A stretch of 64,000 nt of DNA, taken from NCBI RefSeq assembly GCF_014905135.1, contig NZ_CP041406.1, positions 1,736,001-1,800,000 of the forward strand, in the 5' to 3' direction. This DNA comes from Sulfurimonas paralvinellae (lineage in GTDB: Bacteria; Campylobacterota; Campylobacteria; Campylobacterales; Sulfurimonadaceae). The notes under the pieces are model-generated. The model had not been told where the DNA came from. It worked only from the letters and a program-made list of their open reading frames with translations, and searched no databases. This document shows positions 38,701-54,162 of this stretch, piece by piece. Numbering within the stretch: position 1 is the first letter of the stretch; each line of letters opens with the position of its first letter. The position numbers and the translations under genes are program-made.

Positions 38701-40371
38701 ATGAATGATCAAATTTTCTGGATTGTTCTTAAACGATTAAGAATACCTTTTCTTGTCATCATTGTCACCTTTGCCATATCTATCTTGGGACTCACGCTTA
38801 TAGACGGCGTTGATGACCAGGGACATGTTTACCACATGACCTTTTTCGATGCTTTTTATTTTGTCAGCTATATGGCCAGTACCATCGGTTTCGGTGAAGC
38901 ACCCTACACCTTCACCTACTCTCAACGTATCTGGGTCAGCGGCATCATTTACCTTACGGTTATCGGCTGGTTCTATGCCATCGGTTCTATTGTTGCACTT
39001 ATTCAGGATGAAGCACTCAGAAAAGCGGTGCAAAGAAATCGTTTCAACAAACAGGTTCGCAGTCTGACCGAACCTTTTTACATCATGCTCGGTTACAACA
39101 GTGTCATCAAAAACATCATCAACCGAATCCATGCCAACGATTACCGTTTTGTCGTTTTAGACAAAGACAAAGCAAAGATCGATGCACTAATGTTAGAGAA
39201 TTTCTACCCTCATGTGCCGGCGATAGACGGCGATGTAACAAATCAGCAAATGCTCAAACTTGCCGGAATCCATAGAAAAAACTGTGTCGGCATTATCTCT
39301 CTCTTTCGAGATGATACAAAGAACACACAGATAGCAACGGTCTGTAAACTGCTCAACAAAAAGATTGACATCATTGTAAAAGGGAGTTCACCACAGCACC
39401 TTGAACACTTCAAATCGATGAATCTCAAACATATTCAAGACCCCTTCAATACTATCTCAAAGAGAATTTACTACAGTATTACCGCCCCGCATATCTGGCT
39501 TTTGGAGATGTGGGCATACGGGCACAGTCTCAATCTTCGAAAACGCGACCTCTTTCCAAAAGGAAAATATATCATTTGCGGTTACGGACGAATGGGACAG
39601 GCACTTGAGATCGGTCTGAAAAAAGCAAATATAGAATATGTCACCTATAAAATAGATTCAAAAACATACCAAAAAGAAAAAGGAACGACACTCTTTGGTG
39701 ATGAAGAAGATACACAAAAACTTCTCGACCTTGGCATCAGCGATGCGGCCTGCATCATCGCTGCAACAAAAGATGACCTGCTCAATCTCACCATCTTGAA
39801 CAAAGCGAAAAAACTCAATCCTGAGATCTTCACCGTAGCACGTGAAAATGCCATTGAAGAGCTTACAATGTTCCAGGCAGCTAAGATAAATAAGATCTAT
39901 GTTCTTGAGAAGATTTTGGCCGATACAACCTATACTCTGCTTTCAAAGCCGCTTCTTGATGCCTTTGTACATGAAGTTCGTAAGAGGGATGAAGCATGGG
40001 GCGAGATCATCGTAAATATGCTCAACAATATCATAGGCGGTACTCCGGACTATTTTGAGATTGCAGTAAATAAAGAAGAAACGTATGCGCTCGCACTCGA
40101 ACTGGAAAAAGGAAAAAAAATAACACTGGCAAATCTTCGACGTTCACGTGAGAATAGAGAAGAGCTGCTGCCTATTGTCTTTTTACTTTTAAAACGAAAA
40201 GGTGAAATCTTTTTAATTCCCGATTCACAAATGAACATAGAACTTGACGATCAGCTACTCATCGTTGCCGATAATGAAAACAGAGAAGACTTTGAGTACA
40301 TCATCAACAACATTTATGAACTTGACTATATTTTAGAGATTGAAAGGCCCAAACTTTTTGGGCTCTTTTAG
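38701..40371 (+). CDS. Potassium channel protein with two RCK domains
   Basis: A 556-residue protein. Two membrane helices (about 12-35 and 75-100) flank a pore loop with the filter STIGFGEAPY, a variant of TVGYGD. Two TrkA-N/RCK domains follow: ITEP-like FYIMLGYNSVIKNII at about 127 and KYIICGYGRMGQALEIG at about 296, then TrkA-C regions. It should be a ligand-gated cation channel controlled by nucleotides or ions. It ends 4 bp into the convergent formate dehydrogenase gene. Confidence 0.88.
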   Translation: MNDQIFWIVLKRLRIPFLVIIVTFAISILGLTLIDGVDDQGHVYHMTFFDAFYFVSYMASTIGFGEAPYTFTYSQRIWVSGIIYLTVIGWFYAIGSIVALIQDEALRKAVQRNRFNKQVRSLTEPFYIMLGYNSVIKNIINRIHANDYRFVVLDKDKAKIDALMLENFYPHVPAIDGDVTNQQMLKLAGIHRKNCVGIISLFRDDTKNTQIATVCKLLNKKIDIIVKGSSPQHLEHFKSMNLKHIQDPFNTISKRIYYSITAPHIWLLEMWAYGHSLNLRKRDLFPKGKYIICGYGRMGQALEIGLKKANIEYVTYKIDSKTYQKEKGTTLFGDEEDTQKLLDLGISDAACIIAATKDDLLNLTILNKAKKLNPEIFTVARENAIEELTMFQAAKINKIYVLEKILADTTYTLLSKPLLDAFVHEVRKRDEAWGEIIVNMLNNIIGGTPDYFEIAVNKEETYALALELEKGKKITLANLRRSRENREELLPIVFLLLKRKGEIFLIPDSQMNIELDDQLLIVADNENREDFEYIINNIYELDYILEIERPKLFGLF

Positions 40372-42437
40372 CAGTTTATAACTTCTACTTTTATCGTTTT
40401 AAACGCAGCCGTTAAAATAAGCTCATCTCTAGCATCCCCAAAGAGAGCATTAATTCTACTTTTTGCATGATGGAAAGTTGCAAAGAGCGTCTTTGGCTGC
40501 ACCTTATCAGTGATTTTTACTGTAAGGGGATTTGTCTCTCCGTAGGCTGATTTGAGTATGACTTTTTCACTCGTAAAATCAGCTGCATCATCTTCACATA
40601 CAAGTAAAATATCTTCATCATATCTGTCATTGAGCTTTTGGGAGCGTTTTGTTTGTGCAGCATTATTATAATGTGCAAGTGTGCGTCCCGTTGTCAAGTG
40701 ATAACCTTTGAGATTTTTCTCTATAATCTCTTTTATCATACCGCGCAGTTCATACTGTTTGTATTTAAAGTACCCGTAACCATCTTCCGTTCTAAAATCC
40801 AACTGATGTAAAATCGGTGTATCTTCGGTATGAACAGGCCACTGCAGTCCACGTTTTCTATGTTTTTCAAGCCGATGATAATCTGCACCGCTGAAACGTC
40901 TGTATGCGACGCGCTGCACTTCACTCCAGACATCTTTGCTCGATTTATAATCAGCACTCCCGCCCATTTTATTATCTAGTATCTGCAGCACTTCCCAGTC
41001 ATCCGGCAGGTCTGATTTGACAAGCGGTTGAGAAAGGTGCAGACGACGCATTGCATTGACATAGACACCCGTCTTTTCATAAGCGGACTTAACGCCCACA
41101 ACAATATCCGCACGGCTCGCTACATCGGTCATAAACAGCTCCTGTACAAACAGCAGCTCCAACTCCTCAAAAGCACGGTCTATTTTATTGAGATTCGGAT
41201 GAATATGCGTGAGGTCCTCACCAATATTAAGTACTGCTTTAAGGCGTCCTTCAAGCATTTCATCGACAAGTTCAGGAGTCATAAGTCCCACCTCTTTTGG
41301 CTCTTGATAATCAGGATCGTAATACGGAAGCATTCCCATGTCACAAGTTCCCTGAACATTGTTCTGTCCACGAAGCGGCATCAGTCCAGCACCCTCTTTT
41401 CCAATATTTCCAGTCATCAGTGCCAAGTGTGTAATGGCCATAACGGCATATGAGCCGTCAAGATGTTCCGTAATGCCAAGTCCCCAAAAGATCATCGATT
41501 TTTTAAGTGCATACTCACGTGCAACCTTGCGCACCATTTTTGAAAGATATTCATACCCCTCTATTTCGTTAAAATAGTCAGGATTTGCATACGGGTCGTT
41601 CAGTATCTTCTCTTTAAATTCAGCAAAACCTTTTGTTCTGTCTTCGATAAAACTCTCATCATATAACTCTTCGTCAATAATAACGTAAGCGAGCATATTC
41701 AAGATAAGAAGATTTGCCTCATGCGGCATGATCGCTTTGTATTTTGCAAAACGATGCAGTTTTATCTCACGCACATCAAAAACAGCCAGGTTGTCTTTTT
41801 CCCGAGCAACATCCAAGATACGGTTTGCGATGATAGGGTGCGCTTCGGTAGTATTTGAACCGATAACGATCATAAAATCAACATTATAGATATCATTGTA
41901 CGGATTCGTTGCCGCCCCTTCACCAATAGTTGCGCGCATCCCTTTGAGTGAAGGTGAGTGGCAAACACGCGCACAGTTATCTACGTGAGGAGAGTTAAGA
42001 GTATGACGGGTAAATTTTTGAAACAAATAAGAAGACTCACAAGAGGTACGCGCACCTCCGATGGAAGCGACAGATTTACGACCATACTCTTTTTGAATCT
42101 CTCCCAGTTTCATCGCACATGCAGTCGTAGCCGCATCGAGATCACACTCGTACCAGGTATCATCAAAATCAACAAGAGCCGAAGCGACCGCTTCTTTTAT
42201 ATCAGGATTTTTTTCTAAGAAACTTTTACGAATACGAGGCACTCGAAGTCTATCCTCAGCATCAACGAAATCATAGCCGTATTTCCCTTTTATACAAAGT
42301 TTTCCCTGACTTACCACACCGTCAGGATGCGCAAATACTTTTTTTATCTTATTCTCTTTTGTATCGATATGTGCCGCTATATCACATCCCACTCCACAGT
42401 AGGTACATACGCTGTCTATCGTTTCTATATTTTCCAT
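40368..42437 (-). CDS. Formate dehydrogenase-type molybdopterin oxidoreductase (Cys form)
   Basis: A 689-residue enzyme of the DMSO-reductase superfamily. An N-terminal 4Fe-4S site is C-x2-C-x3-C...C (CTYCGVGC, KLCIKGKYG). The active-site ligand position, NCARVCHSPS, has Cys where E. coli FdhF has selenocysteine, with the adjoining His. NNVQGTCDMGMLP and TTGRTLAHYNN are cofactor-binding regions. No twin-arginine signal, so it is cytoplasmic, and no partner subunits are adjacent. Nearest by motif to FdhH-like formate dehydrogenases; assimilatory nitrate reductase is less likely. A conserved hairpin element lies 38 bp before its ATG. Confidence 0.8.
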   Translation of the reverse strand: MENIETIDSVCTYCGVGCDIAAHIDTKENKIKKVFAHPDGVVSQGKLCIKGKYGYDFVDAEDRLRVPRIRKSFLEKNPDIKEAVASALVDFDDTWYECDLDAATTACAMKLGEIQKEYGRKSVASIGGARTSCESSYLFQKFTRHTLNSPHVDNCARVCHSPSLKGMRATIGEGAATNPYNDIYNVDFMIVIGSNTTEAHPIIANRILDVAREKDNLAVFDVREIKLHRFAKYKAIMPHEANLLILNMLAYVIIDEELYDESFIEDRTKGFAEFKEKILNDPYANPDYFNEIEGYEYLSKMVRKVAREYALKKSMIFWGLGITEHLDGSYAVMAITHLALMTGNIGKEGAGLMPLRGQNNVQGTCDMGMLPYYDPDYQEPKEVGLMTPELVDEMLEGRLKAVLNIGEDLTHIHPNLNKIDRAFEELELLFVQELFMTDVASRADIVVGVKSAYEKTGVYVNAMRRLHLSQPLVKSDLPDDWEVLQILDNKMGGSADYKSSKDVWSEVQRVAYRRFSGADYHRLEKHRKRGLQWPVHTEDTPILHQLDFRTEDGYGYFKYKQYELRGMIKEIIEKNLKGYHLTTGRTLAHYNNAAQTKRSQKLNDRYDEDILLVCEDDAADFTSEKVILKSAYGETNPLTVKITDKVQPKTLFATFHHAKSRINALFGDARDELILTAAFKTIKVEVINC

Positions 42438-42474
42438 TTTTCCACCCTTCTCTACTCTTGAGGCTATTTTGCAA

Positions 42475-42547
42475 GATTTTTAAACAATGTTTTTTGAGGC
42501 TCAGACCAAAGGGAGGATTTGTCCTTAAAAAATATTGTTTAAAAATC
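42475..42547. ncRNA. Conserved hairpin element, copy A
   Basis: A 25-bp stem (42475-42499 with 42523-42547) that pairs completely when two G-U pairs are allowed on the plus-strand RNA. It carries a 23-base loop domain: CTCAGACC, three variable bases, then GGGAGGATTTGT. The loop is almost identical to that of the element at 52339-52416 while the stems differ in sequence. It lies between the SDR gene and the formate dehydrogenase gene, 38 bp before the latter's ATG. It may be a cis-acting leader of the minus-strand gene or a plus-strand small RNA; the wobble pattern mildly favours plus. Confidence 0.6.
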
Positions 42548-42561
42548 GGCTTTATGCAATA

Positions 42562-43296
42562 TTAGTTTGAAAGATAGTTTACAATCCTTTGACTTAAAGC
42601 TGACGGAAGTAAGTTCATGAACCTGATGATTAAATAAAATCTAAGCGGAAAAGCATAGAACTCTTTTCCTTTGTCAATAGCATTTTTCATTCTTAAAACT
42701 CCCTCACTTGTTTCAAGTAAAAAAGGCATTGAAAAATCATTCTTATCAGTCAACTCACTCTTAATAAATCCGGGTAAAAGGGTAATGATCTTTATCCCAT
42801 ACGAAGAATATTTATAACGAAGGCCTTCTGCATAGGCATTAAGTGCACGTTTGGAAGAAGAGTATACCTTTGAAGATGGCATTGAAAAAAGGGATGCCAA
42901 AGAGGAGATAAAAACAACTTTGCCGCTTCCATGCTCACGCAGCTTTGGCATCAAAACTTCCAAAATAGCATGATTTGAAAGCACGTTGACATCATAGAGA
43001 TTTTTAAATGCTGCTATCGTCGGTATATCCTCACTGTGACCCAAAGAAACACCTGCATTGAGAATGAGCATATCAACACTACCGATACTCTCTATCTTCT
43101 CTTGCAGTAGAGCAAAGTCTGTCACATCAACAACAATAATTTTAACAGATTTACAGTGTGGAGAGATTTCTTTTTGAAGTTGTTGCAGTTTTGCCTCACG
43201 ACGAGCCAGTAAAATAAGCTCATTATCTTTTGAAGCATACTGACGGGCAAACTCGGCACCAAGGCCACTACTTGCACCGGTAATGAGGATTTTCAT
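42562..43296 (-). CDS. Short-chain dehydrogenase/reductase
   Basis: A 244-residue Rossmann enzyme. TGASSGLGAEFARQYA is the NAD(P) loop, NAGVSLGH the family NAG, and Ser...YSSSKRAL the catalytic Tyr-x-x-x-Lys. NADPH is likely from the RREAK basic residues. Substrate unknown. It lies 8 bp after hom. Confidence 0.85.
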   Translation of the reverse strand: MKILITGASSGLGAEFARQYASKDNELILLARREAKLQQLQKEISPHCKSVKIIVVDVTDFALLQEKIESIGSVDMLILNAGVSLGHSEDIPTIAAFKNLYDVNVLSNHAILEVLMPKLREHGSGKVVFISSLASLFSMPSSKVYSSSKRALNAYAEGLRYKYSSYGIKIITLLPGFIKSELTDKNDFSMPFLLETSEGVLRMKNAIDKGKEFYAFPLRFYLIIRFMNLLPSALSQRIVNYLSN

Positions 43297-50478: not shown

Positions 50479-50506
50479 ATGCTAACGAAAGAAAGGGTTG
50501 CACAAA

Positions 50507-51724
50507 ATGGCAGTTACAATTGAAAAAGCACTTGAATTAATCTATACAAATACAAAACCAAAATCTTTAAAAATCATACCCATCGAAGAGGCTCTTGGCT
50601 ACATTCTTGCCGAGGATATCACAGCGGTACACAATCTACCGCCTTATGACAACTCTGCAATGGACGGTTACGCCGTTAAAATAGAAGACAGCGGTAAATG
50701 TGTTACAGTGCACTGCACAATTTTTGCAGGCGATGACTTTAAAGGCGAGCTATCTTGCGGTGAAGCAATAAAGATTATGACAGGAGCGCGTATTCCGCTG
50801 GGAACACAGTGCATCGTTCCCATAGAAGATACTCAAATTTGCGATGGCGGCGTAAAACTGCCTGAGAACCTGACAATAAGCAAACATATCCGTTTTGCAG
50901 GTGAAGATATTAAAAAAGGGCAGAAACTCTTAAGCAGAGGAGATAAAATTGACGCTCACCAGATCACACTCTTAGCTTCACAGGGGATCAGCCATATAAA
51001 AGTCTATAAAAAACCACGTATAGCACTCTTTGCATCAGGAAATGAGCTGAAGATGCACTTTGAGCAGGTAGAAGAGTATCAACTCTACAACACTAACACG
51101 CCGACACTGCTCGCACGTGCCAAAGAGTTGAGATGTGAAGTTGAGTTCATCGGCACTGCTGTTGACACACTTGATGATATACATACCCACATAAAAAGTG
51201 CACTTGATTGTGACATTATCATTACAAGCGGCGGTGTGAGTGTCGGCGATGCCGATTTTACAAAAGAGGCCTTTGGAAACTTCGGCTATGAGATACTCTT
51301 TGACAAAGTAGAGATAAAACCGGGAAAACCAACTACCGTTGGTAAAATAGGCGATAAAATGATACTCAATCTTCCTGGAAATCCACTTGCAGCAGCACTG
51401 AATTTTGAGCTTTTTGGACGCAGTATCATCTATGCTATGAGTGGAGCAAAAGCAAAGTTCATCAATCCAATAAGAGCAAAAATGAAAAATGACTTTCAGC
51501 TGCGTCCCGGCAGACGATCTGTCATTCCGGGATATTTTGACGGAGAATTTTTCACTGTTTGTGAGCAATATGCACCAGGGATGATCTCACCTCTTGCTCA
51601 GGCAAACAGTTTTATCATCGCAAGCCAGACATGTGATTTTATCAAAGAAGGAAGCAGTGTGAAAATCATTTCAACAAAATTCAGTTTTACTGCTAAGGAG
51701 TTTCAAGAACTTGTCACTCCTTAA
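50507..51724 (+). CDS. moeA: Molybdopterin molybdenumtransferase MoeA
   Basis: A 405-residue enzyme that inserts molybdate into adenylylated molybdopterin. NSAMDGYAVK, ITSGGVSVGDADF and LPGNPLAAALNF are the family's active-site motifs. I chose ATG 50507 with GAAAGGG nine bases before; the TTG at 50498 abuts that site. It is convergent with queD, 10 bp apart, near moaA and the molybdoenzyme genes. Confidence 0.94.
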   Translation: MAVTIEKALELIYTNTKPKSLKIIPIEEALGYILAEDITAVHNLPPYDNSAMDGYAVKIEDSGKCVTVHCTIFAGDDFKGELSCGEAIKIMTGARIPLGTQCIVPIEDTQICDGGVKLPENLTISKHIRFAGEDIKKGQKLLSRGDKIDAHQITLLASQGISHIKVYKKPRIALFASGNELKMHFEQVEEYQLYNTNTPTLLARAKELRCEVEFIGTAVDTLDDIHTHIKSALDCDIIITSGGVSVGDADFTKEAFGNFGYEILFDKVEIKPGKPTTVGKIGDKMILNLPGNPLAAALNFELFGRSIIYAMSGAKAKFINPIRAKMKNDFQLRPGRRSVIPGYFDGEFFTVCEQYAPGMISPLAQANSFIIASQTCDFIKEGSSVKIISTKFSFTAKEFQELVTP

Positions 51725-51733
51725 AAGAAATTT

Positions 51734-52315
51734 TTAAACAGAATCAGGATTGACAAAAGTCTCCTCATTTAAAATCTTTTCCCACAATCTTCTATCTTTA
51801 AAATCCTCTTTGACCTGTGGAGAAAAATCTATCTCACAAAGATTGATGTCACCCATCTCTTTGGAGTAGGCATCAGCTTCAAAACACTGTGCATAGCCTG
51901 TATCTGTTTCATGGACAATGACAGAGTGCAGTTTCACCTCTTTTTCTCCATTTATTTTAGAGGTAAGACCAAGCAGTTTGTCTATCATAACAAAAATAAC
52001 ACGTGAGAACTGTTCTGCAGAAGGAGAAACCGGAAGTTCAACCCAACGTGCAGAGTGTTTTTTCATATCACGCAGATACTCTGCATCATCCTCACGCCAC
52101 AATGCAATCGCATGATCAAAACTCTCAACAAGATCTTTCATGTTCTGTTTCATCAGACCAAAATCATAAACCATCTGACCATTGTCCAAAAAATTTGATT
52201 CAAAAAGGATCTCAACTTTATAGGAGTGCCCATGGACAGAACTTCTGCATTTTACTGTCGAGCATCTACGAACTACGTGAGCGTTTTCAAATTTGAATAA
52301 TTTTCTGATTATCAT
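51734..52315 (-). CDS. queD: 6-carboxy-5,6,7,8-tetrahydropterin synthase-like protein
   Basis: A 193-residue enzyme of the PTPS/QueD family, which makes the pterin precursor of queuosine. Catalytic and zinc residues are in CRSSVHGHSYKVEI, FESFDHAIAL-like DHAIALW and the C-terminal HETDTGYAQC. It is longer than E. coli QueD by about 70 residues, mainly at the C-terminus. It follows queE after a 113-bp gap that holds the conserved hairpin element. GGAGAGAAGT precedes the ATG. Confidence 0.88.
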   Translation of the reverse strand: MIIRKLFKFENAHVVRRCSTVKCRSSVHGHSYKVEILFESNFLDNGQMVYDFGLMKQNMKDLVESFDHAIALWREDDAEYLRDMKKHSARWVELPVSPSAEQFSRVIFVMIDKLLGLTSKINGEKEVKLHSVIVHETDTGYAQCFEADAYSKEMGDINLCEIDFSPQVKEDFKDRRLWEKILNEETFVNPDSV

Positions 52316-52338
52316 ACTTCTCTCCTTAAGAGTTTTCC

Positions 52339-52416
52339 CATTGTTTTGTAAGATTATTTATAAGGCTCAGACCAGCGGGGAGGATTTGTCCTTGTAAATA
52401 AGCTTACAAAACGATG
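52339..52416. ncRNA. Conserved hairpin element, copy B
   Basis: A 27-bp stem (52339-52365 with 52390-52416) with one A-G mismatch and two G-U pairs on the plus-strand RNA. Its loop is CTCAGACC, AGC, then GGGGAGGATTTGT, almost the same as in copy A at 42475-42547. It lies between queE and queD, 23 bp before the queD ATG. The stems of the two copies differ in sequence, so pairing and the loop seem to be what is kept. Confidence 0.6.
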
Positions 52417-52428
52417 TCAGCAAGAACT

Positions 52429-53187
52429 CTACACTCCTTTATTCGCATCCCAGATACGTATATGCAGTCTGTCGCTAAAATTGTAGCCTTTTGCCTTGCA
52501 AAACTCTATAAGCGGCTCAGTATTGGCTTCAACTTCTGCTTTTGTACCGCCAACAGGCATGCAGTAGACCTTTGTTTTTGGTGAATGGATCCGGATGCTT
52601 TCTATCTCATCTTCGAGTGCCAGATCGATAGAGTCTCTATCTATGGAAAACTTAAAAAAAGCATCTTTTGCATTTGAGGCAATATTGTAAATGACATCTC
52701 CGCGAATACGTTTGGAAAGAGGCTCTTTTGAATTGGCAAGTTTTACCGACAAAGCGAATACACACTCTTTATAGACCGGATAGTGCTCAAAATCAATATT
52801 TAGCGAACCGTTCGTCTCAAATGTCACCTGATGCCCTCTGGCAATCAAAAGCTCAAGGAAAGTCACAAAGACTTCATCATTGGCATATATCAAAGGCTCG
52901 CCACCGGTCAGGACAATATCTACAGCACATGGCAGATCATAAAGTTCCAAAACACTTAAGAGTTCCTGCGGCTTTGTGATTGGTATCCAAGTATGGGAAA
53001 AATGTTCTTTATTGACAGCATAGACAGTATCGCAACCAAGGACCTCAACGCCGTCATCCGCTTTTTCAATACAGCCAAAACCCTCACAACGCATATTACA
53101 TCCGCCAAAACGAAAAAAAAGTGAAGGAGTACCTACATATTTTCCTTCGCCCTGAATGGAGTAAAAATGTTCAACGAGATAGACCAT
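52429..53187 (-). CDS. queE: 7-carboxy-7-deazaguanine synthase with an unusual cluster motif
   Basis: A 252-residue radical SAM enzyme that makes the deazaguanine core of queuosine. YSIQGEGKYVGTPS and GGEPLIY are typical of QueE. The cluster region is unusual: Cys30, Cys34, then an insert with Cys39, and Cys52 in CDTVYAV, whereas common QueE proteins read C-x3-C-x2-C-D-T. The third ligand is therefore displaced by an insertion of about 15 residues. It lies between moaA and queD. Confidence 0.88.
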   Translation of the reverse strand: MVYLVEHFYSIQGEGKYVGTPSLFFRFGGCNMRCEGFGCIEKADDGVEVLGCDTVYAVNKEHFSHTWIPITKPQELLSVLELYDLPCAVDIVLTGGEPLIYANDEVFVTFLELLIARGHQVTFETNGSLNIDFEHYPVYKECVFALSVKLANSKEPLSKRIRGDVIYNIASNAKDAFFKFSIDRDSIDLALEDEIESIRIHSPKTKVYCMPVGGTKAEVEANTEPLIEFCKAKGYNFSDRLHIRIWDANKGV

Positions 53188-53196
53188 TATGCTGTA

Positions 53197-54162
53197 TCAT
53201 CCACCGGTTTCATAAAATGCACGGGTAGATACTTCATCATCTTCTCCGCCCCAGCGGTTTTTCTCTGGTTTTGTACGGACGACTTCTTTGAGTACAGCTG
53301 CCGCTCCTTTAATATCACCCCGCTTGACAGACTCTGCAATGCTCATCGCTTCATCAAAATAGAGGCATGGAATAAGCTGTCCTTCCGCTGTCAATCTAAT
53401 ACGGTTACACTGCTTGCAAAAGTCATCTCCATAGGGCTCGATAATCCCGAATCTGTATCCATCATCCATTTTATAATACTTCGCCGGAGAAGCTCCATCA
53501 TAGCCCTCAGAGACAAAACTGTACTTTTTGGAAAGTTCATCTAAAGCTTCTTGTCCGCTTAGTTTCGAAATGCCCGCCTTTGCGTAAGCATTTTCCATAT
53601 ACTCTATAAAACGTACCGTAATATCACGAGCTTTGCAATATTCCAAAACATCTGAAATCTCATCAGCATTCATACCCTTCATAGGCACCATATTCGCTTT
53701 TACTTTCAGTCCTACTTTGAGTGCTTCATCGACACCTTCGAGTACATTTTTCAAGACATCTTTACCCGCAATTGCCTGTGCGACTTCCGGCTTCAAAGTA
53801 TCTATACTTACGTTTATTCGCTTAAGTCCGGCATCTTTTAGCTTCTGTGCCGTTCCTTTGAGTAAAAATGCATTGGTTGTCATTGCCAGATCAACATCGG
53901 GTGCATAGTCATAGATCATTTTAATGAACTTATCAAGGTCCTCACGCAGAAGCGGTTCTCCACCTGTTATACGAATCTTCTTGACACCTTCATCAATGGC
54001 TACTTTCATAAATTCAAAAAGTTCTTCAAATGAGAGCAGATTCTCTTTTGGCACCCATGAAAAAGGTTTTTCCGGCATACAGTACTGGCATCTGAAGTTA
54101 CATCTCTCTGTCACCGAAACACGAATATAATCGACGACTCTGTCATAGCTGTCTATGAGCAT
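53197..54162 (-). CDS. moaA: GTP 3',8-cyclase
   Basis: A 321-residue radical SAM enzyme, the first step of molybdenum cofactor synthesis. The N-terminal cluster is [17 protein letters not shown] binds SAM, and a second cluster is [18 protein letters not shown]. The usual C-terminal Gly-Gly is present as ETGG. It is followed by queE after 9 bp, so pterin and molybdenum-cofactor genes are clustered with moeA. Confidence 0.95.

Follow-up and report, generated by a model that had tools for sequence, protein, structure and literature searches.

What kind of sequence keeps its loop almost unchanged when its stem differs from one copy to the next and yet still pairs? The question is raised by two hairpins in the window, a 64-kb stretch of a Sulfurimonas-like genome of 2.08 Mb (G000:C1:1736001-1800000). 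The original prediction saw in them a leader RNA regulating the minus-strand gene that follows each copy, and held that stems diverged but still paired excluded a mobile repeat. As a description it was accurate, since both hairpins were recovered by eye and with a covariance model (Table 1), their loops are nearly identical, their stems are divergent but paired, and the distance to the ATG of a minus-strand gene is 36 nt for copy A and 24 nt for copy B. The gene behind each copy has its stop codon 13 nt away from the hairpin, and both flanking genes are on the minus strand. The conserved core measures 22 nt in copy A and 23 nt in copy B, each outer stem has 26 bp, and the RNA fold of copy A has a z-score of -7.7 on the plus strand and -5.8 on the minus strand. 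No third copy was found in the window by covariance-model search.

Table 1. Parts of the two hairpins and the genes on either side, in window coordinates.
Feature	Position	Strand	Basis or remark
Copy A, whole hairpin	42474-42548	+ (core)	Covariance-model match, 82.5 bits
Copy A, 5' arm, 26-bp outer stem	42474-42499	+	Covariance-model match and fold
Copy A, conserved core CTCAGACC-AAA-GGGAGGATTTG	42500-42521	+	Core columns (nearly) invariant across 73 copies
Copy A, apical mini-hairpin CC-AAA-GG	42506-42512	+	2-bp helix covaries in other copies
Copy A, 3' arm of outer stem, 3' foot C-GG	42523-42548	+	Fold and covariance-model match
Copy B, whole hairpin	52340-52415	+ (core)	Covariance-model match, 71.8 bits
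Copy B, 5' arm of outer stem	52340-52365	+	Covariance-model match and DNA fold
Copy B, conserved core CTCAGACC-AGC-GGGGAGGATTTG, one G more	52366-52388	+	Exact-core pattern search and covariance-model match
Copy B, 3' arm of outer stem	52390-52415	+	Covariance-model match
Molybdopterin oxidoreductase, formate dehydrogenase-like, downstream of copy A	40368-42437	-	Pfam PF00384, PF04879, PF01568; neighbour, outside element
Short-chain dehydrogenase, behind copy A	42562-43296	-	Pfam PF00106
6-Pyruvoyl-tetrahydropterin synthase family, QueD-like, downstream of copy B	51734-52315	-	Pfam PF01242
4Fe-4S protein, behind copy B	52429-53187	-	Pfam PF13353

Copies A and B belong to a much larger set. Their own genome contains eight exact long cores, against none for a reversed-pattern control, and 15 copies according to a covariance model derived from 73 copies aligned without gaps; the pattern there is far beyond chance. 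Among at least 120 matches listed in a genome scan, nearly all were in Campylobacterota (Sulfurimonas, Sulfurospirillum, Sulfurovum and other Campylobacterales), and the few from elsewhere had no stems. The exact core occurs in 10 of 397 genomes sampled across the phylum, and a core with at most two mismatches in 35 of 120 sampled across the genus. Positive genomes (Sulfurimonas, Sulfurospirillum-like and other Campylobacterota) carry from 1 to about 49 copies and many relatives carry none. In G492, a genome from another family, about 49 places are listed with at most one mismatch (tally of 23 forward and 18 reverse); its relatives have 1-10 copies each, and G060 has none at the same threshold. 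Presence is all-or-nothing rather than a gradient of decay, since the model finds no good copies in most core-negative Sulfurimonas genomes. Collecting copies through core patterns under-counts decayed cores, of which the model search showed almost none. The search of related genomes suggested in the original prediction has thus yielded many further copies, with stems that still pair. The element had not been recognised at the outset, and this has not changed: Rfam gave no match in the window at gathering score and, for five loci, only sub-threshold hairpin-like microRNA models, and no paper with the core sequence or a matching description was found in the literature searched. As for a phage origin, the viral contigs searched contained no element. 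The dispersed hairpin family, which is spread through Campylobacterota of vents and their relatives, is genuine and apparently undescribed.

The element is about 75 nt long, with a palindromic stem of modally 25-27 bp, longer in some copies, and an apical domain of consensus CTCAGA-NN-RNN-NN-GAGGATTTG. Across the 73 aligned copies the outer stem columns are variable and the core columns (nearly) invariant. In this alignment 95.9% of cells pair, against 60.5% after shuffling and 46-57% in slid controls, an absolute level inflated by the copies having been picked for pairing; the covariation score is 0.854, against 0.175 after shuffling and at most 0.241 in slid controls. An unselected, apex-anchored control showed the same trend (median score 40 versus 8). 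The 2-bp apical helix covaries as well (CC/GG, GC/GC, CT/AG, AC/GT), and the putative CTC/GAG pairs are invariant. In 213 of 219 copies the triloop, read on the core strand, begins with a purine and is GNA, ANC or ANA. RTAG is found at the 5' foot in 56 of 223 copies and CGG at the 3' foot in 43; both are present, once each, in 31, and in all 31 they are equidistant from the core, i.e. the arms are of equal length. The element does not behave as an intrinsic terminator, there being no conserved T run past the 3' foot and the copies being located at gene starts.

Which strand is under selection can be read from the mismatches. In 220 stems, chosen on Watson-Crick pairs only, isolated mismatches on the core strand number 153 G.T versus 19 A.C, an excess found both when the core is antisense to the nearest gene (113 versus 12) and when it is sense (30 versus 6). 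An argument for the plus strand initially made from four G-U sites therefore holds on a far larger sample, and the plus strand, which carries the core in copies A and B, is indeed the one favoured. Pairing on the core strand is kept irrespective of the direction of the adjacent gene, and this strand bias is better evidence than covariation for selection on structure. Unpaired intermediates in the 2-bp apical helix lean the opposite way from the stem wobbles (about seven C.A versus three G.T in a by-eye count). The mRNA of antisense genes, including those at copies A and B, carries the non-core strand, so the selected hairpin is absent from the downstream message; because the G.T bias persists in antisense copies, what is preserved would be either core-strand DNA or a separate core-strand RNA. 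A cis-acting leader RNA controlling the downstream gene, already disfavoured, is for this reason very improbable. It would account for a foot some 20-30 nt before the ATG and for orthologous sites conserved with compensated stems, but not for a preserved strand that is antisense to the mRNA in most Sulfurimonas copies, for the occurrence of both orientations and of three loop inversions (see below), or for the absence of a functional theme.

The second of these molecules, a small structured RNA transcribed from the core strand by its own or a distant promoter and spreading in a SINE-like manner, is distinctly unlikely. Strand-specific tolerance of G.T and covariation combined with a strong RNA fold would be in accord with it, but the core strand in Sulfurimonas shows no enrichment of -10-like signals at a suitable distance, antisense copies are found inside operons, no Rfam family matches, and reverse transcriptase (PF00078) is absent from nine positive genomes, most of those inspected (G000, G325, G403, G281, G036, G492, G330, G233 and G046).

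Almost every site falls between genes and next to a start codon, with 71 sites tandem antisense, 22 tandem sense, 39 divergent and 6 convergent; convergent sites make up 6 of 164. Core and start codon are about 45-65 nt apart whatever the orientation, and the preferred place is immediately before the ribosome-binding site. Hexamers resembling a -10 box are enriched in G492 directly outside the feet, which puts many copies between the promoter and the ribosome-binding site. Of the divergent sites in six complete Sulfurimonas genomes, all nine have their core on the template of the leading strand; replication direction was rejected as the cause of orientation since, despite the correlation, the three sites at lagging-strand genes follow gene direction. 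Copies also lie close together as inverted pairs, often with the two 5' feet adjacent, at several places (L141, L123, L148, L091, L204, L047 and G403:C1:971394-971540).

The neighbouring genes are diverse housekeeping genes (recA, dnaE, dnaA, rpsJ, glmM/rpsT, murE, leuC, hemN, thiG, tkt and many others). The idea that linked genes share pterin/molybdenum chemistry turns out to be local to the window, where MoeA-like and MoaA-like genes flank the QueD/QueE-like pair (50498-54162); the 4Fe-4S gene behind copy B is probably the QueE-like member, judging from its position and a reading of its C-terminus. A regulon theme of Fe-S, cofactor and pterin genes was considered and found incoherent, with neighbours judged by eye from their N-termini, and a search for a gene common to element neighbourhoods turned up only ordinary conserved or paralogous genes.

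Constancy of place could reflect a DNA-level regulatory site that is not mobile. Supercoiling would extrude a hairpin or cruciform immediately before the ribosome-binding site, and a global regulator or specialised polymerase would bind its core strand, which in Sulfurimonas is the template strand of the gene. C-GNA-G triloops form very stable DNA mini-hairpins, and the virion RNA polymerase of phage N4 reads hairpins on the template strand. Sulfurimonas copies do have a fixed place and orientation (52 antisense versus 12 sense by nearest start, and 33 of 36 tandem sites antisense in the six complete genomes), and core and site are kept across species. This reading is nevertheless unlikely, since orientation in G492 is evenly split (19 sense, 19 antisense), the gene set is incoherent, presence among close relatives is patchy and near-identical copies occur at unrelated loci.

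The last point, together with empty sites in relatives, indicates past mobility. Near-identical copies that approach a single consensus (TAGACTTCTTTTAAAACTATTTCGTGAGG-core-CCCTCTAAGAAATAGTTTTAAAAGAAGTCTA) are found at unrelated loci in G492, and its relatives have clean empty sites (L297, L317, L314 and L303), presence and absence being seen in comparisons between species only. In Sulfurimonas there are 23 groups of orthologous sites, with 2 to 12 species each. The site of copy A is occupied in at least 10 further species, six of which have the compensated apical pair GC/GC, and is empty in others, such as G397, where 24 nt separate the genes. Non-pairing core positions are unchanged at flank identities of 65-90%, which argues that many old copies are under selection; that orthologous sites have kept their cores intact for so long implies that many copies have stayed under selection since insertion. 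It is very doubtful that the copies are neutral leftovers of an old mobile palindrome without present function, with arms homogenised by template switching and a core whose conservation is a search artefact. There are signs of template switching and the copies were ascertained by their core, as such a scenario would have it, but one-mismatch cores are much rarer than perfect ones even though orthologous copies predate 20-35% flank divergence, and neither the compensated changes in apical pairs nor the strand-biased wobble would be expected.

How can stems be rewritten without losing their pairing? In G492, 10-13 of 24 pairs may differ between arms of different copies with none unpaired, and about 270 cells are re-paired versus about 56 unpaired or wobble. 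At orthologous sites there are 864 double changes versus 491 others, counted over pairs of copies that are not independent events. In three cases the loop is inverted at the same orthologous site with its flanks intact (L002/L083, L022/L090 and L125/L127). Template switching is known to yield both arm homogenisation and spacer inversion, as described in two reports (PMC8604942, PMC8794818). Matched arm lengths and loop inversions agree with a switch of template from one arm to the other. Covariation by itself is thus no proof of RNA, and the initial exclusion of a mobile repeat was unsafe, since template switching can alter the two arms in concert. Insertion with inverted copying of the target (X-core-X'-Y) was suggested by L052 and L053:7223 and is not retained: the arm of L033 resembles the family stem, recent copies show insertion of the whole element, and later stem extension explains the remainder.

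A mobilising protein or trans factor was not found among the candidates examined, namely Y1 transposases and reverse transcriptases. The Y1/RAYT transposase domain (PF01797) is absent from the positive genomes G000, G046, G281 and G325, and 30 loci around Y1 genes contained no good match to the covariance model; a Y1/RAYT gene may have been lost after the element spread.

Variant loops and other repeats were also encountered. Longer-loop versions (L423 in G036:C23, L324 in G492:C227 and the minus strand of L010) have, after GGGAGGATTTC and ahead of the closing of the stem, about 35-40 nt with GAAAGTTTRCTNNCGCAAYCGC...GCTRCTTTT, in the same position in three families. The block TTTCNAGGAAAGTTTGCTTCGCAACCGCTATTCGCTACTTTTG, the same as in these loops, is also a separate dispersed repeat (L431, L433-L437 and L438), present in further Sulfurimonas genomes as well as one viral contig. 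GTAG occurs in its reverse complement, and the block may thus be a REP-type repeat that enters the loop. A third loop form, CTCGTGAGCCA(A)GGGAGGATTTG, sits on ordinary stems in L422 (G401) and in L364 (G000:C1:1907021-1907094), the latter in the window's own genome and adjoining a normal copy. Another multi-copy repeat (GTAGCTTTGGCTACGCTAAAAGCAAACTGCCTCGCATATGATGC...) directly precedes two G492 copies (L067 and L296), and a further repeat near L314 has many matches in G491.

Among known systems, the element works most like REP sequences of the GTAG/CGTC superfamilies and their RAYT proteins (PMC3733652), which are likewise short extragenic palindromes, dispersed, patchy between species and arranged in inverted close doublets, which the opposite-orientation pairs described above resemble. 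REPs carry a GTAG or CGTC tag at one end, to which the RTAG at the 5' foot of a subset of copies may correspond. The element is nevertheless not classed with them, because REP stems are 5-13 bp long (PMC3733652) as opposed to 25-27 bp or more, and because a RAYT-type gene is absent from several positive genomes and no element lies near the Y1 genes examined. A further difference is that it is here the loop that is conserved and not the stem sequence. Template-switched quasipalindromes (PMC8604942, PMC8794818, PMC7202029) also have arms that change together and a loop that inverts at a fixed site, but their spacer is ordinary sequence whereas here it is a near-invariant domain common to hundreds of copies. 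Regulons of the iron-responsive-element type share a constant loop, variable stems and proximity to many genes; they differ in that the selected strand of the element is not the mRNA strand and that its orientation is unfixed outside Sulfurimonas. Integron attC sites resemble the element in being recognised as a folded single strand with low sequence conservation. Unlike them, the element is conserved at its apex rather than in stem R/L boxes (73 copies), and no cassette arrays were seen at the element sites read. Promoters of the phage N4 virion polymerase (PMC4496689) are rather similar, each being a hairpin of template-strand DNA whose loop has three bases. The element has a much longer stem than these hairpin promoters, a complex internal loop and both orientations.

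The explanation that we prefer, tentatively and with a little less than even confidence, is that this is a dispersed, non-coding, REP-like mobile hairpin DNA repeat of Campylobacterota that is recognised as folded core-strand DNA. The molecule under selection would be single-stranded DNA, namely the folded core strand, or, with lower probability, a separate RNA, and a putative protein would bind the apical domain and would have moved, or still move, the element. Template switching between arms during replication would keep them complementary, at least in part, and also flip the loop, which could explain why stems are wholly different between copies yet paired. Against this explanation, the search for a transposase or other trans factor found none, and the fixed orientation in Sulfurimonas and the conservation of sites with an intact core across species exceed what is expected of neutral insertion. 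A bolder reading, which we consider rather unlikely, is that the DNA hairpin is itself the functional unit: a single-stranded core strand at gene starts, read by a putative protein, with stems that template switching rewrites without loss of function and an identity defined by loop and pairing alone. If true, this would represent a structure-defined rather than sequence-defined class of DNA, mobile or regulatory. The family is a natural data set in which stems have been rewritten hundreds of times around a fixed loop, and it makes testable both whether bacterial palindromes are kept perfect by selection or by template switching and which factor recognises DNA hairpins where genes start. The family is also a warning that covariation, the usual proof of structured RNA, can arise at the level of DNA.
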